Positions 11,804 to 29,775 of a stretch of DNA of 64,000 bases are shown here, in pieces. Every line of letters begins with the position of its first letter. Within the stretch, counting starts at the first letter, position 1. The notes under the pieces are model-generated. The model was not told the DNA's origin and ran no database searches. It was given only the letters and a program-made list of their open reading frames with translations. The translations under genes were made by a program, and so were the position numbers. The DNA is from Flagellimonas sp. HMM57 (GTDB taxonomy: Bacteria > Bacteroidota > Bacteroidia > Flavobacteriales > Flavobacteriaceae): positions 434,001 to 498,000 of the forward strand of contig NZ_CP090004.1 of the NCBI RefSeq assembly GCF_021390175.1. The letters are read 5' to 3'.

Positions 11804-12763
11804 TTAAAAGAAACGTGGAGATTTTAAATTCCCTAAGCTTTTTATAAAATCATATCTAAGGATAACTTCTACTGAGCCATCATTGAATCTTGTGCCTCCC
11901 AAATCAGTGATTTCGCGATCATAAGCAAGCCCAATAAAGAATTCATCCGAAACCTTAAAACCAAAGAGACCACTAAATGCTGCATCCCAACGATACGCCA
12001 CACCACCTATAAATTTTTCATTGAACATGAAATTGGCGGATAAATCTACCTGTAAAGGAGCACCCTGTACCATTTTGGTCAAAAGTGTCGGTTTAAATTT
12101 CAAAAAAGGATTTAGGTCCCAAACATATCCAGTGATAAAATAAAGGTTCACTTGCTCAGATGCCGTAGAAACCGAAGCTTCGTCAAAATGTGTTGTTTCC
12201 AATATCCTTGGCGCAGAAAGTCCTGTGTAAAAACGGTCTGTATGATAATATACCCCTGCTCCAATATTGGGAGAAAACTTATTTTGAATATCTTGTTGAG
12301 ATGTTAACTGCGGATCAAGCTCAAACTCATCGAGCTCCGAAAAACGTATATCCAACATATGGGCACTTGCCTTTAACCCAAAACTTAGTCTTCCCTCCAC
12401 CGAAGTGTAAATCGTATATGAAAAATCAACATCAAAATACGTTTCTGAAGTTGGCCCTATTTTATCGTTGACCACAGAAACACCCAAACCAACCCCTCTA
12501 TACCCCAGTGGAGTATGTAGGTTAAGGGTTTGCGTTTCTGGAGCTCCGTCCAATCCTAGCCATTGGTTTCTGTACAATGCCGCAATACTCAAATGTCCCC
12601 GTGAACCGGCATAAGCAGGATTAACACTGACCGTATTGTACATGTATTGGGTATATTGGGCATCTTGTTGTGCACTGAGCTTTAGTCCGGCACCCATTAG
12701 TATGCAGACTAAAACCAGTATTTGAACTTTTTTCTGTACTATCATGTTATCCACAGTAATCAT
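11804..12763 (-). CDS. PorP/SprF-family T9SS outer-membrane protein, partner of the giant adhesin
   Basis: The protein has 319 aa (313 if the ATG at 12745 is used). It has a signal peptide ending at LKLSAQ, then the family signature QQDAQYTQYMYNTVSVNPAYAGSR in two overlapping stretches, GLYRNQW-like and GLDGAPETQTLNLH segments, alternating barrel strands, and a C-terminal Phe-Phe. PorP/SprF proteins are outer-membrane barrels needed for type IX secretion or surface retention of cognate adhesins. SprF is required for SprB. The gene begins 5 bp after the stop of the giant adhesin, so it is very likely co-transcribed and dedicated to it. The shorter start at 12745 is favoured by comparison with the paralogue at 32699, whose signal peptide starts Met-Ile-Lys. 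Confidence 0.92.
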   Translation of the reverse strand: MITVDNMIVQKKVQILVLVCILMGAGLKLSAQQDAQYTQYMYNTVSVNPAYAGSRGHLSIAALYRNQWLGLDGAPETQTLNLHTPLGYRGVGLGVSVVNDKIGPTSETYFDVDFSYTIYTSVEGRLSFGLKASAHMLDIRFSELDEFELDPQLTSQQDIQNKFSPNIGAGVYYHTDRFYTGLSAPRILETTHFDEASVSTASEQVNLYFITGYVWDLNPFLKFKPTLLTKMVQGAPLQVDLSANFMFNEKFIGGVAYRWDAAFSGLFGFKVSDEFFIGLAYDREITDLGGTRFNDGSVEVILRYDFIKSLGNLKSPRFF

Positions 12764-12768
12764 TTCTT

Positions 12769-15700
12769 TTATCGGTTGATATATAAGTATCCTGAGAGCT
12801 CTTTCATATTGCCCATAAGGTCTTCATACTCCACTATGTAGAAATACGTACCAACCGGAAGCTTATTATCTTTACTTAATGTAACCCTGCCTTGAGATGT
12901 ACCATCAAAGACATTCCCTGTCGTGTTGTATGATTTGGTCGCGTAAACCTCCACACCCCATCTGTTATAAATCTTGACTGTGTTGTTTGGATATTCGTCT
13001 AAATTTCTAATAATTAAAACATCATGAATACCATCTCCATTTGGAGTTATCACATTGATAACATCTACCTCTTCCTCTTCAGTAGATCCAAGATCAGGAT
13101 CTAAATAATTAGGTATTTCATTTCCATTTGAATCATCGTTGGAATAATCCCCATCTGAATTCAAATCTTCGTCAATAGTCTCAATACCATCTCCATCGTC
13201 ATCAGAATCCCTATAATTTGGAATACCGTTAGCGTCTGTGTCAGGCAGATATGTAGCTGGATCATCAATCTCATCGTTCACATCTATATCAATAACAACA
13301 CTTCCTTCATAGCCATCATCAAGACCATCATTATCCTTATCCGAACCAATAAATACAACATCTGGAATTCCATCTTCATTAAAATCATGCCCTTCTATAC
13401 TGTCTGGAACGGCATCATCATCGCTATCTAAATCAACATAATCAGGAATACCGTCACCATCAGAATCTAGAGGAATTAGACCAACATCCCCATTATTTTC
13501 GTAAGCATCATCTACTCCATTAGCATTTGTATCTAACAAACTTGGAGATATATAACCACTTGTTAATTGTGCTTCAACATTATCTGGAATTCCATCATTA
13601 TCACTATCGATATCCAAATAGTCTGGAATTCCATCCCTGTCGGTATCGGTTGGGTCTGTTGCCGGATCATTGTCTCCATCAGAATTCAAATCCTCAAAAC
13701 TATCGAGAATACCATCACCATCACTATCCAACACAGTGGTATCATTATCCAAAATTGTTCCTGTTGCCGTGTCAGAGATATCTCCTGCAATTCCAGCATC
13801 TACACTAGTTATCCTTATAGTGAAATCTTCGTCCAACTCATCTATATCATCATCAACTGTTGGCACAACAACTATAGTGGATGTTTCACCAGCTAAAATT
13901 GTTACTTGAATATCAGTTGAATCATAATCTGAAGCATCAGCGATACCATCGGTTAAACTAAATGTTAATACTAGGCTTTCATTACATTTTGCTTGTGAAA
14001 GCGATACTAAAAAGCTTATATTTTCTCCTTCTATTCCTGATGCATCTTCAATCGTAATATCAGGCGCTATACCTTGAACTGTTATGGTTTGTTCCACATT
14101 GATACTGTTCCCGGCCTCGTCCGTAACGCTGTACGTCCTTGTTATCGTTCCCGGGTTGCTCCCCGTAAGGGCACTGTCGCTCACGAAGGCAACGACGATG
14201 TCGCCGCTCGCGCTGCAGTTGTCCGATTCGTCCGTTACAACGCCCACGTTGGGCAGCGGTACGTCGCCGATGCACTCCACCGTAATGTCAGATGGGTCGC
14301 TCGCCGTAGGGTCCGTCGTGTCGTCAACGATGATATTTTGGGTCACGGTGATACTGTTCCCGGCCTCGTCCGTTACGCTGTACGTCCGTGTTATCGTTCC
14401 CGGGTTGCTGCCGACAAGCCCGCTGTCGCTCACGAAGGCAACTGTGATGTCGCCGCTCGCGCTGCAGTTGTCCGATTCGTCCGTTACAACGCCCACGTTG
14501 GGCAGCGGTACGTCGCCGATACATTCAACGGTGATCGCAGATGGATCGCTCGCCGTAGGGTCCGTCGTGTCGTCAACGATGATATTTTGGGTCACGGTGA
14601 TGCTGTTCCCGGCCTCGTCCGTAACGCTGTACGTCCGTGTTATCGTTCCAGGGTTGCTGCCAACAAGCCCGCTGTCGCTCACGAAGGCAACGACGATGTC
14701 GCCGCTAGCACTGCAGTTGTCCGATTCGTCCGTCACAACGCCCACGTTGGGCAGCGGTACGTCACCGATACATTCCACCGTAATGTCAGATGGGTCGCTC
14801 GCCGTAGGGTCCGTCGTGTCGTCAACGATGATATTTTGGGTCACGTTGATGCTGTTCCCGGCCTCGTCCGTGATACTGTACGTCCTTGTTATCGTTCCCG
14901 GGTTGCTGCCGACAAGCCCGCTGTCGCTCACGAAGGCAACTGTGATGTCGCCGCTCGCGCTGCAGTTGTCCGATTCGTCCGTTACAACGCCCACGTTGGG
15001 CAGCGGTACGTCGCCGATACATTCAACGGTGATCGCAGATGGATCGCTCGCCGTAGGGTCCGTCGTGTCGTCGACTATGATATTTTGGGTCACGGTGATG
15101 CTGTTCCCGGCCTCGTCCGTAACGCTGTACGTCCGTGTTATCGTTCCAGGGTTGCTGCCGACAAGCGCACTGTCGCTCACGAAGGCAACTGTGATGTCGC
15201 CGCTAGCACTGCAGTTGTCCGATTCGTCCGTCACAACGCCCACGTTGGGCAGCGGTACGTCACCGATACATTCCACCGTAATGTCAGATGGATCGCTCGC
15301 CGTAGGGTCCGTCGTGTCGTCAACGATGATATTTTGGGTCACGTTGATGCTGTTCCCGGCCTCGTCCGTGATACTGTAGGTCCTTGTTATCGTCCCCGGG
15401 TTGCTCCCCGTAAGGGCACTGTCGCTCACGAACGCCACCGTGATGTCGCCAGCCGCGCTGCAGTTGTCCGATTCGTCCGTTACAACGCCCACGTTGGGCA
15501 GCGGTACGTCACCGATACATTCCACCGTAATGTCAGATGGATCGCTCGCCGTAGGGTCCGTCGTGTCGTCAACGATGATATTTTGGGTCACGGTGATACT
15601 GTTCCCGGCCTCGTCCGTTACGCTGTACGTCCTTGTTATCGTTCCCGGGTTGCTGCCGACAAGCCCGCTGTCGCTCACGAAGGCAACGACGATGTCGCCA

Positions 15701-18700
15701 GCCGCGCTGCAGTTGTCCGATTCGTCCGTTACAACGCCCACGTTGGGCAGCGGTACGTCGCCGATGCACTCCACCGTAATGTCAGATGGGTCGCTCGCCG
15801 TAGGGTCCGTCGTGTCGTCGACGATGATATTTTGGGTCACGTTGATACTGTTCCCGGCCTCGTCCGTAACGCTGTACGTCCTTGTTATCGTCCCGGGGTT
15901 GCTGCCAACAAGCCCGCTGTCGCTCACGAAGGCAACGACGATGTCGCCAGCCGCGCTGCAGTTGTCCGATTCGTCCGTTACAACACCCACGTTGGGCAGC
16001 GGTACGTCGCCGATGCACTCCACCGTAATGTCAGATGGGTCGCTCGCCGTAGGGTCCTCATTGTCGACTACCGTCACGTCAAAACTACACATCGCAGTAA
16101 GCCCCGATGAATCCGTTACCTCAAAAGTGTTCGTCGTCGTCCCTATCGGAAAGGTCGAACCCGAGGGAAGGCCCGCTATCTGTACCGTCACAGCTCCCGG
16201 ATTGTTATCAGTGCCCACAGGTGCAGTATACGTGACCACAGCCTCGCATACGCCCGCATCCGTATCCTGTACGATGTCAGAGGGACAGTTGATCACCGGT
16301 GCCTCGCTGTCCACCACCGTCACGTCAAAACTACAGGTGAACGTGTTGCCCGCTCCGTCCGTTACCTCGAAGGTGTTCGTAGTCGTTCCCGTTGGGAATG
16401 CCGCTCCCGAAGCGAGTCCCGCTATCTGTACCGTCGTTGCCGTTCCACAATTGTCCGTGCCAACGGGTGCCGTATAGGTCAACACTGCCGTTGATTGCCC
16501 GGCATCCACGTTCTGGGTAATATCCGCCGGACAGCTAATGGTAGGGTCCGTCGTGTCGTCCACGATGATATTTTGGGTCACGTTGATGCTGTTCCCGGCC
16601 TCGTCCGTAACGCTGTACGTCCGTGTTATCGTTCCCGGGTTGCTCCCCGTAAGGGCACTGTCGCTCACGAAGGCAACGACGATGTCGCCGCTCGCGCTGC
16701 AGTTGTCCGATTCGTCCGTTACAACGCCCACGTTGGGAAGCGGTACGTCACCGATACATTCAACGGTAATCGCAGATGGATCGCTCGCCGTGGGGTCCGT
16801 CGTATCGTCGACTATGATGTCCTGTGTTACCGTGATGCTGTTCCCGGCCTCGTCCGTAACGCTGTACGTCCGTGTTATCGTCCCGGGGTTGCTCCCCGTA
16901 AGGGCACTGTCGCTTACGAAGGCAACGACGATGTCGCCGCTCGCGCTGCAGTTGTCCGATTCGTCCGTTACAACGCCCACGTTGGGCAGCGGTACGTCAC
17001 CGATACATTCCACCGTAATGTCAGATGGATCGCTCGCCGTAGGGTCCGTCGTATCGTCGACTATGATGTCCTGTGTTACCGTGATACTGTTCCCGGCCTC
17101 GTCCGTAACGCTGTACGTCCGTGTTATCGTTCCCGGGTTGCTCCCCGTAAGGGCACTGTCGCTCACGAAGGCAACGACGATGTCGCCGCTCGCGCTGCAG
17201 TTGTCCGATTCGTCCGTTACAACGCCCACGTTGGGAAGCGGTACGTCGCCGATACATTCAATGGTGATGTCCGATGGATCGCTCGCCGTAGGGTCCGTCG
17301 TATCGTCGACTATGATGTCCTGTGTTACCGTGATGCTGTTCCCGGCCTCGTCCGTAACGCTGTACGTCCTTGTTATCGTTCCCGGGTTGCTCCCCGTAAG
17401 GGCACTGTCGCTCACGAAGGCAACGACGATGTCGCCGCTCGCGCTGCAGTTGTCCGATTCGTCCGTTACAACGCCCACGTTGGGAAGCGGTACGTCACCG
17501 ATGCACTCCACCGTAATGTCAGATGGATCGCTCGCCGTAGGGTCCGTCGTATCGTCGACTATGATGTCCTGTGTTACCGTGATGCTGTTCCCGGCCTCGT
17601 CCGTAACGCTGTACGTCCGTGTTATCGTTCCCGGGTTGCTGCCAACCAAGGCACTGTCGCTCACGAACGCCACGACGATGTCGCCAGCCGCGCTGCAGTT
17701 GTCCGATTCGTCCGTTACAACGCCCACGTTGGGCAGCGGTACGTCGCCGATACATTCAACGGTGATGTCCGATGGATCGCTCGCCGTAGGGTCCGTCGTG
17801 TCGTCCACGATGATATTTTGGGTCACGTTGATACTGTTCCCGGCCTCGTCCGTAACGCTGTACGTCCGTGTTATCGTTCCCGGGTTGCTCCCCGTAAGGG
17901 CACTGTCGCTCACGAAGGCAACGACGATGTCGCCGCTCGCGCTGCAGTTGTCCGATTCGTCCGTTACAACGCCCACGTTGGGAAGCGGTACGTCACCGAT
18001 GCACTCCACCGTAATGTCAGATGGATCGCTCGCCGTAGGGTCCGTCGTATCGTCGACTATGATGTCCTGCGTTACCGTGATGCTGTTCCCGGCCTCGTCC
18101 GTAACGCTGTACGTCCGTGTTATCGTTCCCGGGTTGCTCCCCGTAAGGGCACTGTCGCTCACGAAGGCAACGACGATGTCGCCGCTCGCGCTGCAGTTGT
18201 CCGATTCGTCCGTTACAACGCCCACGTTGGGAAGCGGTACGTCACCGATGCACTCCACCGTAATGTCAGATGGATCGCTCGCCGTAGGGTCCGTCGTATC
18301 GTCGACTATGATGTCCTGTGTTACCGTGATGCTGTTCCCGGCCTCGTCCGTAACGCTGTACGTCCGTGTTATCGTCCCGGGGTTGCTGCCAACCAAGGCA
18401 CTGTCGCTAACGAACGCCACCGTGATGTCGCCGCTAGCGCTGCAGTTGTCCGATTCGTCCGTTACAACGCCCACGTTGGGAAGCGGTACGTCACCGATAC
18501 ATTCAACGGTAATCGCAGATGGATCGCTCGCCGTGGGGTCCGTCGTATCGTCGACTATGATGTCCTGTGTTACCGTGATGCTGTTCCCGGCCTCGTCCGT
18601 AACGCTGTACGTCCTTGTTATCGTTCCCGGGTTGCTCCCCGTAAGGGCACTGTCGCTTACGAAGGCAACGACGATGTCGCCGCTCGCGCTGCAGTTGTCC

Positions 18701-21700
18701 GATTCGTCCGTTACAACGCCCACGTTGGGCAGCGGTACGTCGCCGATGCACTCCACCGTAATGTCAGATGGGTCGCTCGCCGTAGGGTCCTCATTGTCGA
18801 CTACCGTCACGTCAAAACTACACATCGCAGTAAGCCCCGATGAATCCGTTACCTCAAAAGTGTTCGTCGTCGTCCCTATCGGAAAGGTCGAACCCGAGGG
18901 AAGGCCCGCTATCTGTACCGTCACAGCTCCCGGATTGTTATCAGTGCCCACAGGTGCAGTATACGTGACCACAGCCTCGCATACGCCCGCATCCGTATCC
19001 TGTACGATGTCAGAGGGACAGTTGATCACCGGTGCCTCGCTGTCCACCACCGTCACGTCAAAACTACAGGTGAACGTGTTGCCCGCTCCGTCCGTTACCT
19101 CGAAGGTGTTCGTAGTCGTTCCCGTTGGGAATGCCGCTCCCGAAGCGAGTCCCGCTATCTGTACCGTCGTTGCCGTTCCACAATTGTCCGTGCCAACGGG
19201 TGCCGTATAGGTCACCACTGCCGTTGATTGCCCGGCATCCACGTTCTGGGTAATATCCGCCGGACAGCTAATGGTAGGGTCCGTCGTGTCGTCCACGATG
19301 ATATTTTGGGTCACGTTGATGCTGTTCCCGGCCTCGTCCGTAACGCTGTACGTCCGTGTTATCGTCCCGGGGTTGCTCCCCGTAAGGGCACTGTCGCTCA
19401 CGAACGCCACGACGATGTCGCCGCTAGCGCTGCAGTTGTCCGATTCGTCCGTTACAACGCCCACGTTGGGAAGCGGTACGTCGCCGATACATTCCACGGT
19501 GATGTCCGATGGATCGCTCGCCGTAGGGTCCGTCGTATCGTCGACTATGATGTCCTGTGTTACCGTGATGCTGTTCCCGGCCTCGTCCGTAACGCTGTAC
19601 GTCCTTGTTATCGTTCCCGGGTTGCTCCCCGTAAGGGCACTGTCGCTCACGAAGGCAACGACGATGTCGCCAGCCGCGCTGCAGTTGTCCGATTCGTCCG
19701 TTACAACGCCCACGTTGGGAAGCGGTACGTCACCGATGCACTCCACCGTAATGTCAGATGGATCGCTCGCCGTAGGGTCCGTCGTATCGTCGACTATGAT
19801 GTCCTGCGTTACCGTGATGCTGTTCCCGGCCTCGTCCGTAACGCTGTACGTCCGTGTTATCGTTCCCGGGTTGCTGCCAACCAAGGCACTGTCGCTCACG
19901 AACGCCACGACGATGTCGCCAGCCGCGCTGCAGTTGTCCGATTCGTCCGTTACAACGCCCACGTTGGGAAGCGGTACGTCACCGATGCACTCCACCGTAA
20001 TGTCAGATGGATCGCTCGCCGTGGGGTCCGTCGTATCGTCGACTATGATATTTTGGGTCACGTTGATACTGTTGCCCGCCTCGTCCGTAACGCTGTACGT
20101 CCGTGTTATCGTCCCGGGGTTGCTGCCAACCAAGGCACTGTCGCTCACGAACGCCACCGTGATGTCGCCAGCCGCGCTGCAGTTGTCCGATTCGTCCGTT
20201 ACAACGCCCACGTTGGGAAGCGGTACGTCACCGATACATTCCACCGTAATGTCAGATGGATCGCTCGCCGTAGGGTCCGTCGTATCGTCGACTATGATGT
20301 CCTGTGTTACCGTGATGCTGTTCCCGGCCTCGTCCGTAACGCTGTACGTCCGTGTTATCGTTCCCGGGTTGCTGCCAACCAAGGCACTGTCGCTCACGAA
20401 CGCCACCGTGATGTCGCCGCTAGCGCTGCAGTTGTCCGATTCGTCCGTTACAACGCCCACGTTGGGAAGCGGTACGTCACCGATACATTCAACGGTAATC
20501 GCAGATGGATCGCTCGCCGTGGGGTCCGTCGTATCGTCGACTATGATGTCCTGTGTTACCGTGATGCTGTTGCCCGCCTCGTCCGTGACGCTGTACGTCC
20601 GTGTTATCGTTCCCGGGTTGCTCCCCGTAAGGGCACTGTCGCTCACGAAGGCAACGACGATGTCGCCGCTCGCGCTGCAGTTGTCCGATTCGTCCGTTAC
20701 AACGCCCACGTTGGGAAGCGGTACGTCACCGATACATTCAACGGTAATCGCAGATGGATCGCTCGCCGTGGGGTCCGTCGTATCGTCGACTATGATGTCC
20801 TGTGTTACCGTGATGCTGTTCCCGGCCTCGTCCGTAACGCTGTACGTCCGTGTTATCGTCCCGGGGTTGCTCCCCGTAAGGGCACTGTCGCTTACGAAGG
20901 CAACGACGATGTCGCCGCTCGCGCTGCAGTTGTCCGATTCGTCCGTTACAACGCCCACGTTGGGAAGCGGTACGTCACCGATACATTCCACCGTAATGTC
21001 AGATGGATCGCTCGCCGTAGGGTCCGTCGTATCGTCGACTATGATGTCCTGTGTTACCGTGATGCTGTTCCCGGCCTCGTCCGTGACGCTGTACGTCCGT
21101 GTTATCGTCCCGGGGTTGCTGCCAACAAGCCCACTGTCGCTCACGAAGGCAACGACGATGTCGCCAGCCGCGCTGCAGTTGTCCGATTCGTCCGTTACAA
21201 CACCCACGTTGGGCAGCGGTACGTCGCCGATGCACTCCACCGTAATGTCAGATGGGTCGCTCGCCGTAGGGTCCTCATTGTCGACTACCGTCACGTCAAA
21301 ACTACACATCGCAGTAAGCCCCGATGAATCCGTTACCTCAAAAGTGTTCGTCGTCGTCCCTATCGGAAAGGTCGAACCCGAGGGAAGGCCCGCTATCTGT
21401 ACCGTCACAGCTCCCGGATTGTTATCAGTGCCCACAGGTGCAGTATACGTGACCACAGCCTCGCATACGCCCGCATCCGTATCCTGTACGATGTCAGAGG
21501 GACAGTTGATCACCGGTGCCTCGCTGTCCACCACCGTCACGTCAAAACTACAGGTGAACGTGTTGCCCGCTCCGTCCGTTACCTCGAAGGTGTTCGTAGT
21601 CGTTCCCGTTGGGAATGCCGCTCCCGAAGCGAGTCCCGCTATCTGTACCGTCGTTGCCGTTCCACAATTGTCCGTGCCAACGGGTGCCGTATAGGTCACC

Positions 21701-24700
21701 ACTGCCGTTGATTGCCCGGCATCCACGTTCTGGGTAATATCCGCCGGACAGCTAATGGTAGGGTCCGTCGTGTCGTCCACGATGATATTTTGGGTCACGT
21801 TGATGCTGTTCCCGGCCTCGTCCGTAACGCTGTACGTCCGTGTTATCGTCCCGGGGTTGCTGCCAACCAAGGCACTGTCGCTCACGAACGCCACCGTGAT
21901 GTCGCCGCTAGCGCTGCAGTTGTCCGATTCGTCCGTTACAACGCCCACGTTGGGAAGCGGTACGTCACCGATACATTCAACGGTAATCGCAGATGGATCG
22001 CTCGCCGTGGGGTCCGTCGTATCGTCGACTATGATGTCCTGTGTTACCGTGATGCTGTTCCCGGCCTCGTCCGTAACGCTGTACGTCCTTGTTATCGTTC
22101 CCGGGTTGCTCCCCGTAAGGGCACTGTCGCTTACGAAGGCAACGACGATGTCGCCGCTCGCGCTGCAGTTGTCCGATTCGTCCGTTACAACGCCCACGTT
22201 GGGCAGCGGTACGTCGCCGATGCACTCCACCGTAATGTCAGATGGGTCGCTCGCCGTAGGGTCCGTCGTGTCGTCAACGATGATATTTTGGGTCACGGTG
22301 ATACTGTTCCCGGCCTCGTCCGTTACGCTGTACGTCCGTGTTATCGTTCCCGGGTTGCTGCCGACAAGCCCGCTGTCGCTCACGAAGGCAACTGTGATGT
22401 CGCCGCTCGCGCTGCAGTTGTCCGATTCGTCCGTTACAACGCCCACGTTGGGCAGCGGTACGTCGCCGATACATTCAACGGTGATCGCAGATGGATCGCT
22501 CGCCGTAGGGTCCGTCGTGTCGTCAACGATGATATTTTGGGTCACGGTGATGCTGTTCCCGGCCTCGTCCGTAACGCTGTACGTCCGTGTTATCGTTCCA
22601 GGGTTGCTGCCAACAAGCCCGCTGTCGCTCACGAAGGCAACGACGATGTCGCCGCTAGCACTGCAGTTGTCCGATTCGTCCGTCACAACGCCCACGTTGG
22701 GCAGCGGTACGTCACCGATACATTCCACCGTAATGTCAGATGGGTCGCTCGCCGTAGGGTCCGTCGTGTCGTCAACGATGATATTTTGGGTCACGTTGAT
22801 GCTGTTCCCGGCCTCGTCCGTGATACTGTACGTCCTTGTTATCGTTCCCGGGTTGCTGCCGACAAGCCCGCTGTCGCTCACGAAGGCAACTGTGATGTCG
22901 CCGCTCGCGCTGCAGTTGTCCGATTCGTCCGTTACAACGCCCACGTTGGGCAGCGGTACGTCGCCGATACATTCAACGGTGATCGCAGATGGATCGCTCG
23001 CCGTAGGGTCCGTCGTGTCGTCGACTATGATATTTTGGGTCACGGTGATGCTGTTCCCGGCCTCGTCCGTAACGCTGTACGTCCGTGTTATCGTTCCAGG
23101 GTTGCTGCCGACAAGCGCACTGTCGCTCACGAAGGCAACTGTGATGTCGCCGCTAGCACTGCAGTTGTCCGATTCGTCCGTCACAACGCCCACGTTGGGC
23201 AGCGGTACGTCACCGATACATTCCACCGTAATGTCAGATGGATCGCTCGCCGTAGGGTCCGTCGTGTCGTCAACGATGATATTTTGGGTCACGTTGATGC
23301 TGTTCCCGGCCTCGTCCGTGATACTGTAGGTCCTTGTTATCGTCCCCGGGTTGCTCCCCGTAAGGGCACTGTCGCTCACGAACGCCACCGTGATGTCGCC
23401 AGCCGCGCTGCAGTTGTCCGATTCGTCCGTTACAACGCCCACGTTGGGCAGCGGTACGTCACCGATACATTCCACCGTAATGTCAGATGGATCGCTCGCC
23501 GTAGGGTCCGTCGTGTCGTCAACGATGATATTTTGGGTCACGGTGATACTGTTCCCGGCCTCGTCCGTTACGCTGTACGTCCTTGTTATCGTTCCCGGGT
23601 TGCTGCCGACAAGCCCGCTGTCGCTCACGAAGGCAACGACGATGTCGCCAGCCGCGCTGCAGTTGTCCGATTCGTCCGTTACAACGCCCACGTTGGGCAG
23701 CGGTACGTCGCCGATGCACTCCACCGTAATGTCAGATGGGTCGCTCGCCGTAGGGTCCGTCGTGTCGTCGACGATGATATTTTGGGTCACGTTGATACTG
23801 TTCCCGGCCTCGTCCGTAACGCTGTACGTCCTTGTTATCGTCCCGGGGTTGCTGCCAACAAGCCCGCTGTCGCTCACGAAGGCAACGACGATGTCGCCAG
23901 CCGCGCTGCAGTTGTCCGATTCGTCCGTTACAACGCCCACGTTGGGCAGCGGTACGTCACCGATGCACTCCACGGTGATGTCCGATGGATTACTTGCCGT
24001 AGGGTCCTCATTGTCGACTACCGTCACGTCAAAACTACACATCGCAGTAAGCCCCGATGAATCCGTTACCTCAAAAGTGTTCGTCGTCGTCCCTATCGGA
24101 AAGGTCGAACCCGAGGGAAGGCCCGCTATCTGTACCGTCACAGCTCCCGGATTGTTATCAGTGCCCACAGGTGCAGTATACGTGACCACAGCCTCGCATA
24201 CGCCCGCATCCGTATCCTGTACGATGTCAGAGGGACAGTTGATCACCGGTGCCTCGCTGTCCACCACCGTCACGTCAAAACTACAGGTGAACGTGTTGCC
24301 CGCTCCGTCCGTTACCTCGAAGGTGTTCGTAGTCGTTCCCGTTGGGAATGCCGCTCCCGAAGCGAGTCCCGCTATCTGTACCGTCGTTGCCGTTCCACAA
24401 TTGTCCGTGCCAACGGGTGCCGTATAGGTCACCACTGCCGTTGATTGCCCGGCATCCACGTTCTGGGTAATATCCGCCGGACAGCTAATGGTAGGGTCCG
24501 TCGTGTCGTCCACGATGATATTTTGGGTCACGTTGATGCTGTTGCCCGCCTCGTCCGTGACGCTGTACGTCCGTGTTATCGTTCCCGGGTTGCTCCCCGT
24601 AAGGGCACTGTCGCTCACGAAGGCAACGACGATGTCGCCGCTCGCGCTGCAGTTGTCCGATTCGTCCGTTACAACGCCCACGTTGGGAAGCGGTACGTCA

Positions 24701-27700
24701 CCGATACATTCAACGGTAATCGCAGATGGATCGCTCGCCGTGGGGTCCGTCGTATCGTCGACTATGATGTCCTGTGTTACCGTGATGCTGTTCCCGGCCT
24801 CGTCCGTAACGCTGTACGTCCGTGTTATCGTTCCCGGGTTGCTGCCAACCAAGGCACTGTCGCTCACGAACGCCACGACGATGTCGCCAGCCGCGCTGCA
24901 GTTGTCCGATTCGTCCGTTACAACGCCCACGTTGGGCAGCGGTACGTCGCCGATACATTCAACGGTGATGTCCGATGGATCGCTCGCCGTAGGGTCCGTC
25001 GTGTCGTCCACGATGATATTTTGGGTCACGTTGATACTGTTCCCGGCCTCGTCCGTAACGCTGTACGTCCGTGTTATCGTCCCGGGGTTGCTCCCCGTAA
25101 GGGCACTGTCGCTTACGAAGGCAACGACGATGTCGCCGCTCGCGCTGCAGTTGTCCGATTCGTCCGTTACAACGCCCACGTTGGGCAGCGGTACGTCACC
25201 GATACATTCCACCGTAATGTCAGATGGATCGCTCGCCGTAGGGTCCGTCGTATCGTCGACTATGATGTCCTGTGTTACCGTGATACTGTTCCCGGCCTCG
25301 TCCGTAACGCTGTACGTCCGTGTTATCGTTCCCGGGTTGCTCCCCGTAAGGGCACTGTCGCTCACGAAGGCAACGACGATGTCGCCGCTCGCGCTGCAGT
25401 TGTCCGATTCGTCCGTTACAACGCCCACGTTGGGAAGCGGTACGTCACCGATGCACTCCACCGTAATGTCAGATGGATCGCTCGCCGTAGGGTCCGTCGT
25501 ATCGTCGACTATGATGTCCTGTGTTACCGTGATGCTGTTCCCGGCCTCGTCCGTAACGCTGTACGTCCGTGTTATCGTTCCCGGGTTGCTGCCAACCAAG
25601 GCACTGTCGCTCACGAACGCCACGACGATGTCGCCAGCCGCGCTGCAGTTGTCCGATTCGTCCGTTACAACGCCCACGTTGGGCAGCGGTACGTCGCCGA
25701 TACATTCAACGGTGATGTCCGATGGATCGCTCGCCGTAGGGTCCGTCGTGTCGTCCACGATGATATTTTGGGTCACGTTGATACTGTTCCCGGCCTCGTC
25801 CGTAACGCTGTACGTCCGTGTTATCGTTCCCGGGTTGCTCCCCGTAAGGGCACTGTCGCTCACGAAGGCAACGACGATGTCGCCGCTCGCGCTGCAGTTG
25901 TCCGATTCGTCCGTTACAACGCCCACGTTGGGAAGCGGTACGTCACCGATGCACTCCACCGTAATGTCAGATGGATCGCTCGCCGTAGGGTCCGTCGTAT
26001 CGTCGACTATGATGTCCTGCGTTACCGTGATGCTGTTCCCGGCCTCGTCCGTAACGCTGTACGTCCGTGTTATCGTTCCCGGGTTGCTCCCCGTAAGGGC
26101 ACTGTCGCTCACGAAGGCAACGACGATGTCGCCGCTCGCGCTGCAGTTGTCCGATTCGTCCGTTACAACGCCCACGTTGGGAAGCGGTACGTCACCGATG
26201 CACTCCACCGTAATGTCAGATGGATCGCTCGCCGTAGGGTCCGTCGTATCGTCGACTATGATGTCCTGTGTTACCGTGATGCTGTTCCCGGCCTCGTCCG
26301 TAACGCTGTACGTCCGTGTTATCGTCCCGGGGTTGCTGCCAACCAAGGCACTGTCGCTAACGAACGCCACCGTGATGTCGCCGCTAGCGCTGCAGTTGTC
26401 CGATTCGTCCGTTACAACGCCCACGTTGGGAAGCGGTACGTCACCGATACATTCAACGGTAATCGCAGATGGATCGCTCGCCGTGGGGTCCGTCGTATCG
26501 TCGACTATGATGTCCTGTGTTACCGTGATGCTGTTCCCGGCCTCGTCCGTAACGCTGTACGTCCTTGTTATCGTTCCCGGGTTGCTCCCCGTAAGGGCAC
26601 TGTCGCTTACGAAGGCAACGACGATGTCGCCGCTCGCGCTGCAGTTGTCCGATTCGTCCGTTACAACGCCCACGTTGGGCAGCGGTACGTCACCGATACA
26701 TTCCACCGTAATGTCAGATGGATCGCTCGCCGTAGGGTCCGTCGTATCGTCGACTATGATATTTTGGGTCACGTTGATACTGTTCCCGGCCTCGTCCGTA
26801 ACGCTGTACGTCCTTGTTATCGTTCCCGGGTTGCTCCCCGTAAGGGCACTGTCGCTCACGAAGGCAACGACGATGTCGCCGCTCGCGCTGCAGTTGTCCG
26901 ATTCGTCCGTTACAACGCCCACGTTGGGAAGCGGTACGTCACCGATGCACTCCACCGTAATGTCAGATGGATCGCTCGCCGTAGGGTCCGTCGTATCGTC
27001 GACTATGATGTCCTGTGTTACCGTGATGCTGTTCCCGGCCTCGTCCGTAACGCTGTACGTCCGTGTTATCGTTCCCGGGTTGCTGCCAACCAAGGCACTG
27101 TCGCTCACGAACGCCACGACGATGTCGCCAGCCGCGCTGCAGTTGTCCGATTCGTCCGTTACAACGCCCACGTTGGGCAGCGGTACGTCGCCGATACATT
27201 CAACGGTGATGTCCGATGGATCGCTCGCCGTAGGGTCCGTCGTGTCGTCAACGATGATATTTTGGGTCACGGTGATACTGTTCCCGGCCTCGTCCGTTAC
27301 GCTGTACGTCCGTGTTATCGTTCCCGGGTTGCTGCCGACAAGCCCGCTGTCGCTCACGAAGGCAACGACGATGTCGCCGCTCGCGCTGCAGTTGTCCGAT
27401 TCGTCCGTTACAACGCCCACGTTGGGCAGCGGTACGTCACCGATACATTCAACGGTGATCGCAGATGGATTGCTCGCAGTAGGGTCCGTTGTATCTGCAA
27501 CAGTAATGGTTCTGGTAAAAATAGCGCTAGTATTTCCCGACCCATCTGTTGCTTGGTATGAAATAACTCTTGTATAATCATTTGGATTTCCACCTGGCGT
27601 TGTGATGTCGCTCACTATAGCTACATCAGCACTACAATTGTCCGAAGCAACTGGGAAAGGGAAAGGTTGTGTCCCACAGAACAATTGAATTCCATTAGAA

Positions 27701-29493
27701 GATGGGGCAAAACCAAAATTTACTCCCGACCATTCTATATTACCACCTATTCCACTAAATGGTGCTACAGCATTTGTTCCTTGGAATATGTGATTGTATG
27801 TACCATCTCCATTATCCACTTCGACATAGGTAAATAAAGATTGATTGCTTAGTTGCGTCTCATCTATTTGGTAGTTTGCATTGATTATTCTTGCTTCCCA
27901 ATAATCTACAGTGGACCCGGTACTATTTTGTACTCCAAAACCCCAGGAAAATTGAGCTTCATTAAAAAATGTAGTAGATAAATCAGTACAGCTTGGTAAT
28001 TCAGGAACATCATCAGCACATTGGTAAGAAACATCCAATGAGCCTACTGGTGTGGTCCAAGTTGGCGCTACATTATCTATATCTATAGTAGTAACCGCAG
28101 TAACATTAATTACAGGGTCTCCGGTTGTTCCTCCATATTCCACAACATAGCCTTGTGGCCGGTAGGCTCCACCTCCACCTTGATCTCTTAAATCGTTCCA
28201 AGAACCAGGTCCTCCTGTACCTCTAACTACAGATGGATCCGTTATGTGTGCATAATCTTCATTTCCTGATTGGTTTGGTTCCCCACCATTCCAATATGCA
28301 AAGTTAAATGGTGGTGTTGTGCTACCTGATGCAGTACCACTCCAAAATGGTGTTCCAGCTTCTGGTCCGGTAACCCAACGCCAATCCCCTTCAGTAGCCG
28401 CATCGCTCGCCCCAATCCATCCAACGCCTTGGGCCTGAGACCCAGAAAAATCCGATTCTTCTTGTGAGGTCAATGTAGCAAGGTATCCTTGTAGGCCATA
28501 ATATGTTCGTAATGCAGCAGCATCCCTAGCATCGGTCCATCTTATACCTACGTCTGACACAAACTCATAATAATGCCCTGTTGCTGGTAAAAAATTGGTA
28601 TCTCCAACGGTTATTGAAAAACTTCTGCTTCCTGAAGGGTTAGTTCCGCTAGTGGAAAATTGTACTGCGCTTACAGCTGATTCAAAGGCTGTAAACGTTG
28701 CCGGACCGGTAAGCGTTAACTTTCCTTCAACCGCACTCCATGACGCAGTAATACTGGGGTGAGAACCGGTGAGTGTCAATAAATCTTCCCCATTAATGTA
28801 TCCTGAAGAAATTTGAACAGAAACTTCGTCTGCAGTCGTATCATCTGAATCGGTAATACTAATTGTTTCCACAACAGAAATTGGTGTGCCCGGACAAAAA
28901 TCCTGATCTCCCGTAGCATTAATGACCGGAGGGTCATTACTTGCTCCAGGTGCTGTTCCCTGTACTAAAATATTGTCAATCTCGTAAAGCTCGGTGCCCC
29001 CAGTATTATACATGGTAATCCTAAATTCCAAAGTATTTCCGGATAAACCTGAAACACTATATGAAGGCTGTATAGGTTCTGAAGGTGATGTGTCCCCTGA
29101 AGTATTTTCAATTTCAACATAGCTTCCTCCATCGATTCGATACTGAATTCTAAAAACATCCTGTCCTGAATCCAATGTTCCCCCAGAACCTGCATCCAAA
29201 CTGAATGACACGTTTATAAAACCAGATATATTTATTGTACCTGTAGTCCAATAAGCAGTAGTATTGTCAGTATTTTGACCTCTTAAAACTTGAGATCCAC
29301 TAGAAGTCTGAACGCTAACATCCGTATCGTTAGTCGACCATGAGGCTGTACTAGTTCCGGTACCATTACCTGTTTGGGTTCCATTGGTATAACTTTCAAA
29401 GTCTTCTGACCATATTGTAGTTTGTCCTGAGGCCATCAACCATCCTAGGAACAAAATGAAAAAAAATACATTTTTCTTATTGAGGTTTTCCAT
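12769..29493 (-). CDS. giant repetitive surface adhesin (~5574 aa) with CTLD, HYR-type array, Calx-beta, TSP3 and T9SS type-B sorting domain
   Basis: The ATG at 29493 is preferred over 29505 because it places a normal signal peptide (MENLNKK, hydrophobic core, ASGQ) at the N-terminus. Approximate domains: jelly-roll-like N-terminal part to 190; C-type-lectin-like domain 305-455 (YYEF, EGDWRWVTG, PNFAYWNGGEP-type loop, WNDL, GYVVEYGG); a first HYR-like unit to about 670; then 46 modules of 83 aa and four pairs of 82-aa HYR domains to about 5145. These are followed by a Calx-beta domain to about 5250, Ca-binding TSP3-type DxDxDG repeats to about 5465, and a gliding-motility-associated C-terminal domain (NVITPNGDGIHD, KIYNRWGVEVY, GTYFYIVEY). 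Each 83-aa module has two Cys, probably a disulfide. It should be exported by T9SS and anchored outside. PorP/SprF follows 5 bp later and an OmpA protein precedes. Role in adhesion or gliding is inferred. Confidence 0.93.
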   Translation of the reverse strand: MENLNKKNVFFFILFLGWLMASGQTTIWSEDFESYTNGTQTGNGTGTSTASWSTNDTDVSVQTSSGSQVLRGQNTDNTTAYWTTGTINISGFINVSFSLDAGSGGTLDSGQDVFRIQYRIDGGSYVEIENTSGDTSPSEPIQPSYSVSGLSGNTLEFRITMYNTGGTELYEIDNILVQGTAPGASNDPPVINATGDQDFCPGTPISVVETISITDSDDTTADEVSVQISSGYINGEDLLTLTGSHPSITASWSAVEGKLTLTGPATFTAFESAVSAVQFSTSGTNPSGSRSFSITVGDTNFLPATGHYYEFVSDVGIRWTDARDAAALRTYYGLQGYLATLTSQEESDFSGSQAQGVGWIGASDAATEGDWRWVTGPEAGTPFWSGTASGSTTPPFNFAYWNGGEPNQSGNEDYAHITDPSVVRGTGGPGSWNDLRDQGGGGAYRPQGYVVEYGGTTGDPVINVTAVTTIDIDNVAPTWTTPVGSLDVSYQCADDVPELPSCTDLSTTFFNEAQFSWGFGVQNSTGSTVDYWEARIINANYQIDETQLSNQSLFTYVEVDNGDGTYNHIFQGTNAVAPFSGIGGNIEWSGVNFGFAPSSNGIQLFCGTQPFPFPVASDNCSADVAIVSDITTPGGNPNDYTRVISYQATDGSGNTSAIFTRTITVADTTDPTASNPSAITVECIGDVPLPNVGVVTDESDNCSASGDIVVAFVSDSGLVGSNPGTITRTYSVTDEAGNSITVTQNIIVDDTTDPTASDPSDITVECIGDVPLPNVGVVTDESDNCSAAGDIVVAFVSDSALVGSNPGTITRTYSVTDEAGNSITVTQDIIVDDTTDPTASDPSDITVECIGDVPLPNVGVVTDESDNCSASGDIVVAFVSDSALTGSNPGTITRTYSVTDEAGNSINVTQNIIVDDTTDPTASDPSDITVECIGDVPLPNVGVVTDESDNCSASGDIVVAFVSDSALTGSNPGTITRTYSVTDEAGNSITVTQDIIVDDTTDPTASDPSAITVECIGDVPLPNVGVVTDESDNCSASGDITVAFVSDSALVGSNPGTITRTYSVTDEAGNSITVTQDIIVDDTTDPTASDPSDITVECIGDVPLPNVGVVTDESDNCSASGDIVVAFVSDSALTGSNPGTITRTYSVTDEAGNSITVTQDIIVDDTTDPTASDPSDITVECIGDVPLPNVGVVTDESDNCSASGDIVVAFVSDSALTGSNPGTITRTYSVTDEAGNSINVTQNIIVDDTTDPTASDPSDITVECIGDVPLPNVGVVTDESDNCSAAGDIVVAFVSDSALVGSNPGTITRTYSVTDEAGNSITVTQDIIVDDTTDPTASDPSDITVECIGDVPLPNVGVVTDESDNCSASGDIVVAFVSDSALTGSNPGTITRTYSVTDEAGNSITVTQDIIVDDTTDPTASDPSDITVECIGDVPLPNVGVVTDESDNCSASGDIVVAFVSDSALTGSNPGTITRTYSVTDEAGNSINVTQNIIVDDTTDPTASDPSDITVECIGDVPLPNVGVVTDESDNCSAAGDIVVAFVSDSALVGSNPGTITRTYSVTDEAGNSITVTQDIIVDDTTDPTASDPSAITVECIGDVPLPNVGVVTDESDNCSASGDIVVAFVSDSALTGSNPGTITRTYSVTDEAGNSINVTQNIIVDDTTDPTISCPADITQNVDAGQSTAVVTYTAPVGTDNCGTATTVQIAGLASGAAFPTGTTTNTFEVTDGAGNTFTCSFDVTVVDSEAPVINCPSDIVQDTDAGVCEAVVTYTAPVGTDNNPGAVTVQIAGLPSGSTFPIGTTTNTFEVTDSSGLTAMCSFDVTVVDNEDPTASNPSDITVECIGDVPLPNVGVVTDESDNCSAAGDIVVAFVSDSGLVGSNPGTITRTYSVTDEAGNSINVTQNIIVDDTTDPTASDPSDITVECIGDVPLPNVGVVTDESDNCSAAGDIVVAFVSDSGLVGSNPGTITRTYSVTDEAGNSITVTQNIIVDDTTDPTASDPSDITVECIGDVPLPNVGVVTDESDNCSAAGDITVAFVSDSALTGSNPGTITRTYSITDEAGNSINVTQNIIVDDTTDPTASDPSDITVECIGDVPLPNVGVVTDESDNCSASGDITVAFVSDSALVGSNPGTITRTYSVTDEAGNSITVTQNIIVDDTTDPTASDPSAITVECIGDVPLPNVGVVTDESDNCSASGDITVAFVSDSGLVGSNPGTITRTYSITDEAGNSINVTQNIIVDDTTDPTASDPSDITVECIGDVPLPNVGVVTDESDNCSASGDIVVAFVSDSGLVGSNPGTITRTYSVTDEAGNSITVTQNIIVDDTTDPTASDPSAITVECIGDVPLPNVGVVTDESDNCSASGDITVAFVSDSGLVGSNPGTITRTYSVTDEAGNSITVTQNIIVDDTTDPTASDPSDITVECIGDVPLPNVGVVTDESDNCSASGDIVVAFVSDSALTGSNPGTITRTYSVTDEAGNSITVTQDIIVDDTTDPTASDPSAITVECIGDVPLPNVGVVTDESDNCSASGDITVAFVSDSALVGSNPGTITRTYSVTDEAGNSINVTQNIIVDDTTDPTISCPADITQNVDAGQSTAVVTYTAPVGTDNCGTATTVQIAGLASGAAFPTGTTTNTFEVTDGAGNTFTCSFDVTVVDSEAPVINCPSDIVQDTDAGVCEAVVTYTAPVGTDNNPGAVTVQIAGLPSGSTFPIGTTTNTFEVTDSSGLTAMCSFDVTVVDNEDPTASDPSDITVECIGDVPLPNVGVVTDESDNCSAAGDIVVAFVSDSGLVGSNPGTITRTYSVTDEAGNSITVTQDIIVDDTTDPTASDPSDITVECIGDVPLPNVGVVTDESDNCSASGDIVVAFVSDSALTGSNPGTITRTYSVTDEAGNSITVTQDIIVDDTTDPTASDPSAITVECIGDVPLPNVGVVTDESDNCSASGDIVVAFVSDSALTGSNPGTITRTYSVTDEAGNSITVTQDIIVDDTTDPTASDPSAITVECIGDVPLPNVGVVTDESDNCSASGDITVAFVSDSALVGSNPGTITRTYSVTDEAGNSITVTQDIIVDDTTDPTASDPSDITVECIGDVPLPNVGVVTDESDNCSAAGDITVAFVSDSALVGSNPGTITRTYSVTDEAGNSINVTQNIIVDDTTDPTASDPSDITVECIGDVPLPNVGVVTDESDNCSAAGDIVVAFVSDSALVGSNPGTITRTYSVTDEAGNSITVTQDIIVDDTTDPTASDPSDITVECIGDVPLPNVGVVTDESDNCSAAGDIVVAFVSDSALTGSNPGTITRTYSVTDEAGNSITVTQDIIVDDTTDPTASDPSDITVECIGDVPLPNVGVVTDESDNCSASGDIVVAFVSDSALTGSNPGTITRTYSVTDEAGNSINVTQNIIVDDTTDPTISCPADITQNVDAGQSTAVVTYTAPVGTDNCGTATTVQIAGLASGAAFPTGTTTNTFEVTDGAGNTFTCSFDVTVVDSEAPVINCPSDIVQDTDAGVCEAVVTYTAPVGTDNNPGAVTVQIAGLPSGSTFPIGTTTNTFEVTDSSGLTAMCSFDVTVVDNEDPTASDPSDITVECIGDVPLPNVGVVTDESDNCSASGDIVVAFVSDSALTGSNPGTITRTYSVTDEAGNSITVTQDIIVDDTTDPTASDPSAITVECIGDVPLPNVGVVTDESDNCSASGDITVAFVSDSALVGSNPGTITRTYSVTDEAGNSITVTQDIIVDDTTDPTASDPSDITVECIGDVPLPNVGVVTDESDNCSASGDIVVAFVSDSALTGSNPGTITRTYSVTDEAGNSITVTQDIIVDDTTDPTASDPSDITVECIGDVPLPNVGVVTDESDNCSASGDIVVAFVSDSALTGSNPGTITRTYSVTDEAGNSINVTQNIIVDDTTDPTASDPSDITVECIGDVPLPNVGVVTDESDNCSAAGDIVVAFVSDSALVGSNPGTITRTYSVTDEAGNSITVTQDIIVDDTTDPTASDPSDITVECIGDVPLPNVGVVTDESDNCSASGDIVVAFVSDSALTGSNPGTITRTYSVTDEAGNSITVTQDIIVDDTTDPTASDPSDITIECIGDVPLPNVGVVTDESDNCSASGDIVVAFVSDSALTGSNPGTITRTYSVTDEAGNSITVTQDIIVDDTTDPTASDPSDITVECIGDVPLPNVGVVTDESDNCSASGDIVVAFVSDSALTGSNPGTITRTYSVTDEAGNSITVTQDIIVDDTTDPTASDPSAITVECIGDVPLPNVGVVTDESDNCSASGDIVVAFVSDSALTGSNPGTITRTYSVTDEAGNSINVTQNIIVDDTTDPTISCPADITQNVDAGQSTAVLTYTAPVGTDNCGTATTVQIAGLASGAAFPTGTTTNTFEVTDGAGNTFTCSFDVTVVDSEAPVINCPSDIVQDTDAGVCEAVVTYTAPVGTDNNPGAVTVQIAGLPSGSTFPIGTTTNTFEVTDSSGLTAMCSFDVTVVDNEDPTASDPSDITVECIGDVPLPNVGVVTDESDNCSAAGDIVVAFVSDSGLVGSNPGTITRTYSVTDEAGNSINVTQNIIVDDTTDPTASDPSDITVECIGDVPLPNVGVVTDESDNCSAAGDIVVAFVSDSGLVGSNPGTITRTYSVTDEAGNSITVTQNIIVDDTTDPTASDPSDITVECIGDVPLPNVGVVTDESDNCSAAGDITVAFVSDSALTGSNPGTITRTYSITDEAGNSINVTQNIIVDDTTDPTASDPSDITVECIGDVPLPNVGVVTDESDNCSASGDITVAFVSDSALVGSNPGTITRTYSVTDEAGNSITVTQNIIVDDTTDPTASDPSAITVECIGDVPLPNVGVVTDESDNCSASGDITVAFVSDSGLVGSNPGTITRTYSITDEAGNSINVTQNIIVDDTTDPTASDPSDITVECIGDVPLPNVGVVTDESDNCSASGDIVVAFVSDSGLVGSNPGTITRTYSVTDEAGNSITVTQNIIVDDTTDPTASDPSAITVECIGDVPLPNVGVVTDESDNCSASGDITVAFVSDSGLVGSNPGTITRTYSVTDEAGNSITVTQNIIVDDTTDPTASDPSDITVECIGDVPLPNVGVVTDESDNCSASGDIVVAFVSDSALTGSNPGTITRTYSVTDEAGNSINVEQTITVQGIAPDITIEDASGIEGENISFLVSLSQAKCNESLVLTFSLTDGIADASDYDSTDIQVTILAGETSTIVVVPTVDDDIDELDEDFTIRITSVDAGIAGDISDTATGTILDNDTTVLDSDGDGILDSFEDLNSDGDNDPATDPTDTDRDGIPDYLDIDSDNDGIPDNVEAQLTSGYISPSLLDTNANGVDDAYENNGDVGLIPLDSDGDGIPDYVDLDSDDDAVPDSIEGHDFNEDGIPDVVFIGSDKDNDGLDDGYEGSVVIDIDVNDEIDDPATYLPDTDANGIPNYRDSDDDGDGIETIDEDLNSDGDYSNDDSNGNEIPNYLDPDLGSTEEEEVDVINVITPNGDGIHDVLIIRNLDEYPNNTVKIYNRWGVEVYATKSYNTTGNVFDGTSQGRVTLSKDNKLPVGTYFYIVEYEDLMGNMKELSGYLYINR
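14308..18783 (-). repeat. copy 1 of a 4,476-bp segmental duplication within the adhesin gene
   Basis: Nine modules, one HYR pair and seven modules match, unit by unit, the block at 22258-26733 (offset exactly 7,950 bp). Long stretches that I compared directly (for example 14324-14580 against 22274-22530) are base-identical. Visible differences are limited: the first module after the HYR pair, two modules in the middle (positions 7 and 8 of the nine), and one Val/Leu change in the HYR pair near 16482. Confidence 0.85.
22258..26733 (-). repeat. copy 2 of the 4,476-bp segmental duplication
   Basis: Counterpart of 14308-18783, in the same orientation. The order of variant modules (Ala/Ser-34, Val/Thr-38, Gly/Ala-46 and Ile-61 markers) is the same in both copies except at the places listed for copy 1. 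That order is too specific to arise by independent amplification. Confidence 0.85.
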
Positions 29494-29775
29494 GTATTGG
29501 GGCAAATTTGAAAATAGACGTATGTAATCGACGTCTTCTAAAACTCAATAAATGTATGTTGGATAGTTTGGGAGACCCAAAAAATGTTGTCTATGACCGT
29601 GTTTGGTCTAGTGAAGTTAGAGAATAATGCTGTATGTTTCTTAATTTATTCCAAAAATTGTTAAAAAAACGGCGTTTTTATCGATAAGGGCTCTAAAATA
29701 GAATTCTCCGAAGGGGAAAGAATTATACCAACCGGCGTAAGAAACTGTAAAAGTTGTTAAAATCGAATTGAATAC
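29494..29775 (-). other. leader region between the OmpA-type gene and the giant adhesin
   Basis: This 282-bp AT-rich gap has no supported gene on either strand. It contains a TTATCGATAA palindrome at 29678-29687, which resembles a similar ATCGAT-centred site upstream of the other adhesin (36216-36228). I found no convincing TAnnTTTG promoter and no strong terminator after the OmpA gene. The length suggests a separate promoter or a long 5' leader for the giant gene. Confidence 0.4.

Follow-up and report, generated by a model that had tools for sequence, protein, structure and literature searches.

A stretch of 64,000 nucleotides from the marine bacterium Flagellimonas sp. HMM57 (contig NZ_CP090004.1, positions 434,001 to 498,000; hereafter the window) encodes a giant protein, referred to as the giant, in which long runs of two-cysteine modules are punctuated by pairs of HYR domains. 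Its cysteines most likely fit bonds between neighbouring modules better than bonds within modules, judging from sequence comparison. It is highly probable that arrays of HYR and HYR_4C domains in general are disulfide-stapled rods. Each domain (i) would be bonded to the next (i+1), its first staple Cys pairing with the DNC Cys of that following domain, in addition to the intradomain bond of HYR domains, and the loss of one staple pair would create a hinge. The giant would be the extreme case, with one chain of staples from its N-terminal domain to its Calx-beta domain that is cut only at four hinges, each between the two domains of an HYR pair (HYRa|HYRb). We estimate the probability that the giant is a static surface fibre of such rods, exported by the type IX secretion system (T9SS), at about 0.6.

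Cysteine pairing in HYR arrays

Domains were compared in an alignment of modules from 238 non-redundant proteins, consisting of search hits and the giant (238 of 246 were used for the table of domains with a lone DNC or a lone GxC Cys). Database matches numbered 722 among 1107 scored candidates in one list and 3708 among 7999 in another, and the best 120 of each list were used. The lag tests exclude modules gapped at key positions, and the HYR counts exclude domains with Cys at states 48-50. The start Cys and the end Cys of HYR domains co-occur within one domain (phi 0.97) and are therefore read as an ordinary intradomain bond. For the other two cysteines, the presence of GxC in one domain and of DNC in the next disagrees in 17 of 3809 adjacent HYR domain pairs (0.45%). 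Within the same domain (lag 0) the mismatch is 5.92% (n=4322), and at lags -2, -1, +2, and +3 it is 2.5, 2.3, 1.7, and 3.3% (n=3512, 3809, 3512, and 3323). Calculated per protein-state, phi is 0.80 at lag +1 compared with -0.08 to 0.30 at the other lags. Among the 56 proteins with any mismatch, 45 favour the junction rule (GxC of domain i with DNC of domain i+1), none favours the intradomain rule, and 11 tie. Neighbours without the HYR start/end Cys pair, which are mostly HYR_4C-like, give a phi of 0.72 for the junction and 0.05 within the domain (n=1127). Where a 3-Cys domain has DNC and lacks GxC and the domain after it is HYR, the latter lacks DNC in 77 of 78 cases.

The sequence-only reading of this DNA had proposed one disulfide per unit, between Cys-12 and Cys-31, which are taken to be Cys14 and Cys33 counted from DPTAS. 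Each module would then close its own disulfide, the HYR pairs would be plain spacers, and any lone Cys would be free or due to chance. GxC and DNC are indeed usually found in the same domain (phi 0.86, 3787 cells), and in long uniform arrays such pairing is indistinguishable from the junction rule. Where a Cys has been lost, however, the within-domain match is the worst of the six lags and the next-domain match the best. Intradomain pairing also leaves 10 of the 122 Cys of the giant unpaired and, as counted above, is preferred by no protein. We consider it improbable that the modules are closed individually, and the lag tests favour bonds to the next module.

The ends of arrays bear on the same question. 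In 30 proteins the last module is of HYR type and is followed by a tail of 60-140 aa. GxC is lacking in 20 of them, where the last domain is a 3-Cys HYR domain with DNC, and all 20 tails are free of Cys. The remaining 10 keep the partner Cys, and their tails contain an odd number of Cys in eight cases but not in the other two. Within arrays, 65 of 82 lone-DNC domains have a lone-GxC domain after them (over 1000 permutations, the mean was 19.1 and the maximum 33), as do 24 of 26 in a second protein set (115 of 120 proteins used; 117 representatives, two of them common with the first set). These lone pairs were first read as a clamp, a disulfide linking DNC of HYRa with GxC of HYRb, a reading that the array-end and lag tests overturned: the co-loss of one junction staple gives the same pattern, none of the 20 terminal lone-DNC domains has a later Cys, and phi between DNC of domain i and GxC of domain i+1 is 0.11 per protein-state (0.91 over all cells, mostly uniform arrays) against 0.80 for the junction, so that such a clamp is most improbable.

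On a domain tree, which has few columns and many weak branches, the lone-DNC/lone-GxC label changes 10 times, and at least four changes are forced by well-supported branches. Simple inheritance is thereby ruled out as the sole cause of the pattern, and the HYRa|HYRb pattern originated more than once in the protein set. In eight proteins (P0131, P0147, P0152, P0155, P0157, P0164, P0170, and P0205) the first domain, directly after a signal-peptide-like start, is an HYR domain with GxC and without DNC, as the junction rule expects. A search of one open-access library for the HYR domain and disulfides found, by title and start of abstract, no paper on bacterial arrays.

Architecture of the giant protein

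The giant comprises the following features.

12769..29493, minus strand: open reading frame (ORF) of the giant, 5574 aa, 568 kDa, pI 4.05, 122 Cys
28594..29430, minus strand: N1 and NX regions (our own names), residues 22-300, holding C200 and preceded by a signal-peptide-like start
28069..28581, minus strand: C-type-lectin-like domain (CTLD), residues 305-475, with EPN405 and WND432 and no Cys; Lectin_C E 6e-4 (below cut-off), PDB phmmer E 1e-7
27487..28068, minus strand: read here as a module-like domain with a long insertion, residues 476-669, with C492, C502, C606, and C620; HYR_4C 17.4 bits at 608-665, below cut-off
24499..27486, minus strand: block 1, 12 two-Cys HYR_4C modules, residues 670-1665; HYR_4C E 5.7e-31 over four modules
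24007..24498, minus strand: HYR pair 1, proposed hinge, residues 1666-1829; HYRa without GxC Cys, HYRb without DNC Cys
21766..24006, minus strand: block 2, 9 modules, cut at DPTAS
21274..21765, minus strand: HYR pair 2, proposed hinge
19282..21273, minus strand: block 3, 8 modules, cut at DPTAS
18790..19281, minus strand: HYR pair 3, proposed hinge
16549..18789, minus strand: block 4, 9 modules, cut at DPTAS
16057..16548, minus strand: HYR pair 4, proposed hinge
14065..16056, minus strand: block 5, 8 modules, cut at DPTAS
13708..14064, minus strand: Calx-beta domain, Pfam E 5.8e-7, with a single Cys (C5170), the proposed staple partner of module 46
13060..13707, minus strand: Asp-rich TSP3-like region; TSP3_bac 13.8 bits, below cut-off
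12772..13059, minus strand: T9SS type B C-terminal signal (CHU_C / TIGR04131)

The gene runs from an ATG at 29493 to a stop codon at 12769-12771, which is its sole stop. A recount with the frame cut at DPTAS recovers what the sequence-only reading had described, i.e., an uninterrupted 16.7-kb frame, 46 modules in blocks of 12-9-8-9-8, four near-identical HYR pairs between the five blocks, and two Cys in every module copy. Each module has exactly 83 aa and each HYR pair 164 aa; the two Cys, 19 residues apart at positions 14 and 33, are present in 46 of 46 modules. When Cys are assigned by position as a matter of bookkeeping, the junction rule pairs all 122 in 61 bonds. There are 46 bonds from a module to the next domain (41 to a module, four to HYRa, and one to C5170 of Calx-beta), four from HYRb to a module, eight intradomain HYR bonds, and one from C492 to module 1; C200-C620 and C502-C606 are guesses by position. 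Calx-beta likewise has one Cys in the C-terminal ends of G047, G020, G009, and G064, and in P0219. HYRa|HYRb, which occurs four times in the giant, is the only type of junction in the array at which both staple Cys are gone. We infer five stiff segments and four hinges, and the earlier suggestion of a segmented filament gains support.

A profile search of the 83-aa module, a check suggested in the sequence-only reading, returns Pfam HYR_4C (PF23237; 106.9 bits over four modules, cut-off 27). By this match the module is a two-Cys variant of HYR_4C and not a new family. All 46 modules retain two of the four Cys of HYR_4C (pattern 0101000). The giant lacks, as a unit, the C232-C261 pair, for which phi is 0.75 over modules and 0.52 per protein (4251 distinct modules, taken from 5084 aligned hits and having no gap in any of the seven Cys columns). 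The HYR pairs match Pfam HYR at 114.9 bits, and at the C-terminus TIGR04131 scores 46.0 bits (cut-off 35) and CHU_C 93.4 bits (cut-off 27); the HYR, Calx-beta, and gliding-type C-terminal domains seen earlier all lie above curated cut-offs. The N-terminus is hydrophobic and, by eye, signal-peptide-like. The C-type-lectin-like domain claimed near it holds up in part: Pfam Lectin_C falls slightly short (20.9 bits, cut-off 22.6), whereas a PDB phmmer search matches it to carbohydrate-recognition domain structures of the DC-SIGN family, including DC-SIGNR (E 1e-7). EPN and WND, which we take to be the Ca2+/sugar motifs of C-type lectins, are both present in 35 of 37 distinct related lectin domains of the loci scanned. 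Animal CTLDs have two canonical disulfides. Of the related domains, 31 of 37 are free of Cys, and residues 305-475 of the giant are likewise. The tip of the giant would be a Cys-free C-type lectin, with sugar binding predicted from the motifs.

The 46 modules represent 33 distinct DNA sequences and 21 distinct protein sequences, with a mean identity of 91.2% in DNA and 95.9% in protein (first 45 modules), and the four HYR pairs (492 nt) differ mutually by 0-1 nt. Tandem Repeats Finder detects a single array at the gene (14100-27489, period 249, score 14513). Synonymous differences between modules outnumber the others (pS 0.272, pN 0.030, ratio 0.11), which indicates that the protein sequence is kept by selection. 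All four combinations are shown by 702 of 990 pairs of variable module sites, and mean r2 drops from 0.34 for sites less than 20 nt apart to at most 0.10 at larger distances, implying that modules have been reshuffled. Exact repeats, 1371 and 1802 nt long, are common to blocks 1-2 and blocks 4-5, at a single offset of 7950 nt. Because there is one offset, a segment of several kb has been duplicated, and part of the regular punctuation of the array is duplication history.

Exact repeats of this length at one offset could also mean that the length and order of the array are an assembly artefact, and the draft genome of a close relative (G047) breaks inside the array. This is nevertheless very unlikely. 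The genome was assembled as one contig of 4,159,450 bases (4.16 Mb), the array forms one open frame through 33 distinct module sequences, and the copies along the 7950-nt offset differ at 51 of 2200, 1 of 540, and 10 of 1910 positions. Another single-contig genome (G020) has a different array, likewise open.

Long antisense open frames, up to 1038 aa, span the array on the plus strand (14074-27577). They are perhaps a by-product of the GC-rich codons of the array, with no evidence of genes. Elsewhere in the window, ORF 61393-62904 contains a 75-nt repeat (62252-62430, 2.4 copies).

Export, anchoring and motility

The neighbouring genes are as follows.

11804..12763, minus strand: cognate PorP/SprF (SprF1), 319 aa, tail SPRFF, no CxC
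29776..31737, minus strand: PorE-like OmpA/PD40/TPR protein, 653 aa; NCBIfam CHU_0125 and PorE below cut-offs
31750..32523, minus strand: second PorP/SprF (SprF2), whose frame begins late compared with 318-aa homologues
32714..36055, minus strand: TSP3-like ORF with a CHU_C end, 1113 aa; TIGR04131 27.2 bits, below cut-off 35

The proposed export by T9SS is supported, with both C-terminal profiles above their cut-offs and a cognate SprF adjacent. SprF1 (TIGR03519 271.7 bits, cut-off 90.55) starts five bases after the stop codon of the giant, and its only Cys is C20. The two translocon components searched for, SprA and GldK, are present in the genome (2915.8 and 609.6 bits). GldK has C280 and C336 (frame numbering) besides C19; apart from this intact gldK, a GldK-like stretch (G000 C1:2426051-2427102) is split over frames of 237 and 168 aa. 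The genome contains 22 CHU_C matches, 21 of them above the cut-off, and 14 PorP/SprF matches, which are read as 13 genes, since one match covers no more than a short stretch next to SprF2. Two of these genes are contained in longer frames (716 and 588 aa). The frame of SprF2 itself opens only at a late GTG, and the N-terminal part is found in a different stretch that contains a stop; copies in relatives have 311-325 aa. The neighbouring 1113-aa ORF may depend on SprF1.

In Flavobacterium johnsoniae, the CxC in the C-terminal tail of SprF is bonded to GldK and is needed for sustained movement (PMC12635249). Among type B substrates, SprB and Fjoh_4750 move, whereas Fjoh_3952 is static and sits with an SprF and a PorE homologue (PMC12618676). 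A PorE link is likewise proposed in PMC9143113. With SprF1 lacking the CxC tail and a PorE-like gene adjacent, the giant is expected to be a static fibre, with moderate confidence and by analogy with these systems; it is probably not a gliding adhesin.

An SprB-like gliding adhesin carried along a track by its SprF is the alternative to weigh here. The giant resembles SprB and other SprB-repeat proteins (PF13573) in its giant size (568 kDa against 669 kDa for SprB in F. johnsoniae, PMC9143113), its repetitive build, its type B signal, and an SprF gene directly downstream, and SprA and GldK are both encoded. It differs in having a lectin tip, an HYR_4C array, a PorE-like neighbour, and an SprF without CxC. 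CxC tails are found in 3 of the 13 SprF ORFs of the genome, none of which is SprF1: one beside a 4778-aa SprB-repeat ORF, one beside a 4350-aa ORF, and one without an identified type B partner. The SprB repeats lie in that separate 4778-aa ORF (E 1.1e-99) and were absent in a Pfam scan of the N part, four modules, one HYR pair, and the C part of the giant, in keeping with the earlier statement that the protein is comparable in size to SprB and different in modules. PorE-like genes stand by SprF in four other loci (L123-L126) and in the window, and none was found by the three CxC SprFs (about 1.1-2.2 kb downstream covered). A gliding role is unlikely, and the adhesin-like make-up noted at the outset stands.

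The cluster Fjoh_3952-Fjoh_3951-Fjoh_3950 (PMC12618676) likewise has a type B substrate with its own PorP/SprF and a PorE-like protein, and the giant is predicted to be static as well. We expect the giant to be far larger than Fjoh_3952. HYR and HYR_4C giants of Bacteroidota (PF02494, PF23237; e.g., P0007, P0016, and P0048, all with a CHU_C end) share the module families, and two-Cys HYR_4C modules occur in nine other proteins of the first set (1 to 47 each). In P0016, P0033, P0187, and P0188 one HYR pair follows another at intervals of 245 aa, with space for a single module in between, compared with 8-12 modules between pairs in the giant. The binding region of staphylococcal SraP (4m00, 4m03) is a match from another organism with another export, and other rods score alike. 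A role in predation, as for GhpA, the grappling hook protein of Aureispira, is very unlikely. Cadherins reach the same structural score, and GhpA was missing from the PDB sequence hits both for four modules, an HYR pair, and the C part (up to E 1) and for the N part (up to E 0.01). In one open-access library, no literature was found on the HYR domain with type IX secretion and adhesins, and nothing usable on Muricauda appendages.

In the proposed mechanism, Sec would carry the giant to the periplasm, SprA and SprF1 would pass it out, anchored by its C-terminus, and SprF1 and the neighbouring PorE-like protein would hold it in the outer membrane and wall. Outside the cell, the first Cys of each module would bond the DNC Cys of the next, turning runs of modules into stiff rods, and the unstapled HYRa|HYRb joints would provide four hinges between five rods. 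With some 57 domains lined up at ~4 nm per domain, the free end with the lectin would be perhaps 200-250 nm away from the cell, where the lectin would bind sugars with Ca2+ and attach the cell to algae, particles, or other cells.

Several points weigh against a static fibre of stapled rods. The staples are predicted from sequence statistics, and sugar binding at the tip from motifs. The junction rule has 17 exceptions in 3809, and 2 of the 30 array ends do not fit. Counts overstate independence because many of the proteins are related, and since uniform arrays agree at all lags, only a minority of cells is informative. Mean confidence values over 10-residue blocks of an AlphaFold model (window 23758-24747) are 56-91 in two modules, compared with 89-98 in an HYR pair. 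Generic cadherin/Ig-like rods come nearest in structure; the best 50 VIA-align rows include no HYR structure, an absence that is uninformative. That an SprF without CxC means a static protein is an analogy. The PorE-like gene lies upstream, directly behind the second SprF, unlike in the Fjoh_3952 cluster, where it is directly downstream (Fjoh_3951-3950). No PorE-like neighbour was found in the short flanks of four SprFs without CxC (L129, L131, L132, and the first of L128); the PorE link is therefore not general, and the idea that an SprF without CxC always goes with PorE is ruled out.

Origin, base composition and significance

Flagellimonas sp. 389 is close to the source genome (96% in the N part of the giant). 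In four other genomes (G039, G022, G043, and G013) the same place holds, in order, a lectin ORF (930-1826 aa), a second ORF (452-3153 aa; the three long versions are repetitive), a TSP-CTD ORF (~680 aa), SprF1, and NUDIX. In G039 and G022 the lectin ORF comes after a PorE-like gene; in G013 the two are separated by an additional ORF, and the G043 stretch examined has no PorE-like gene. When window 12769-31737 is compared with L152-L155, the giant takes the place of the lectin ORF, the separate ORF, and the TSP-CTD ORF. Its front matches the lectin ORF (CTLD 74-81%) and its end the TSP-CTD ORF (71-76% and 73-84%). In-place gene fusion followed by array expansion is the likeliest origin. At least 5 of 71 genomes of the genus have a match that begins where the Calx-beta end starts; among the matches listed, a sixth (G060) begins at residue 41 of that end and others further in. 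In an rpoC tree covering 30 of 68 matching genomes, a clade with 100/100 support unites three of the five full-end genomes. The full end needs three label changes on this tree, implying either a single gain plus two losses or repeated gains. In G020 the ortholog is 2707 aa long, with ten module matches and four complete HYR pairs.

The array is also set apart by its GC content at third codon positions (GC3), which is 0.72 in the modules (14065-27486) compared with 0.26 and 0.23 in the ends of the same gene, and 0.27 in the last 64 residues before module 1 (residues 606-669). In the genus, repeat windows are richer in GC3 in all eight ORFs, out of 15 inspected, that had 10 or more repeat windows, and in all 12, out of 34 inspected, that had at least three repeat and three unique windows; the excess is also seen in most single amino acids, with exceptions. 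In other genera of the order, 9 of 13 such ORFs show it (22 looked at; 0.318 vs 0.273, p 0.068). The raised GC3 seems to be specific to the genus. L207, a homogenised HYR_4C array of another genus (G153:C20, 5592-aa frame, 45 repeat windows), is flat at 0.22 vs 0.22. No excess of GC alleles was found at variable synonymous sites of the modules (14 of 28 sites). GC-biased gene conversion as a general law of arrays was rejected on these three grounds, i.e., the 9 of 13 ORFs outside the genus, the flat L207, and the lack of a GC-allele excess. Translational selection is unlikely because GC3 is 0.30-0.36 in rpoB and rpoC as well as in three ORFs identified by eye, two of them ribosomal-protein-like and one EF-Tu-like. 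Biased gene conversion (lineage-specific if so; PMC4450053), selection, or source effects are candidate causes.

As a giant T9SS adhesin, the protein is a known kind in a new form, and it provides a clear test of whether static and gliding type B adhesins can be told apart by the SprF tail. With its internal control, the GC-rich array also bears on the debate over GC-biased gene conversion in bacteria; the L207 array is a useful contrast. The part surprising to a specialist is the stapled-rod reading of HYR arrays. Cadherin-like fibres use Ca2+, and to our knowledge disulfides between neighbouring Ig-like domains would be unusual as the main axial link. Database names place HYR repeats in giant adhesins of bacteria as well as in extracellular proteins of animals, hyalin among them. 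If the reading is true, sequence alone would tell locked joints from free ones, and many hard-to-read repeat proteins could be turned into testable mechanical drawings.

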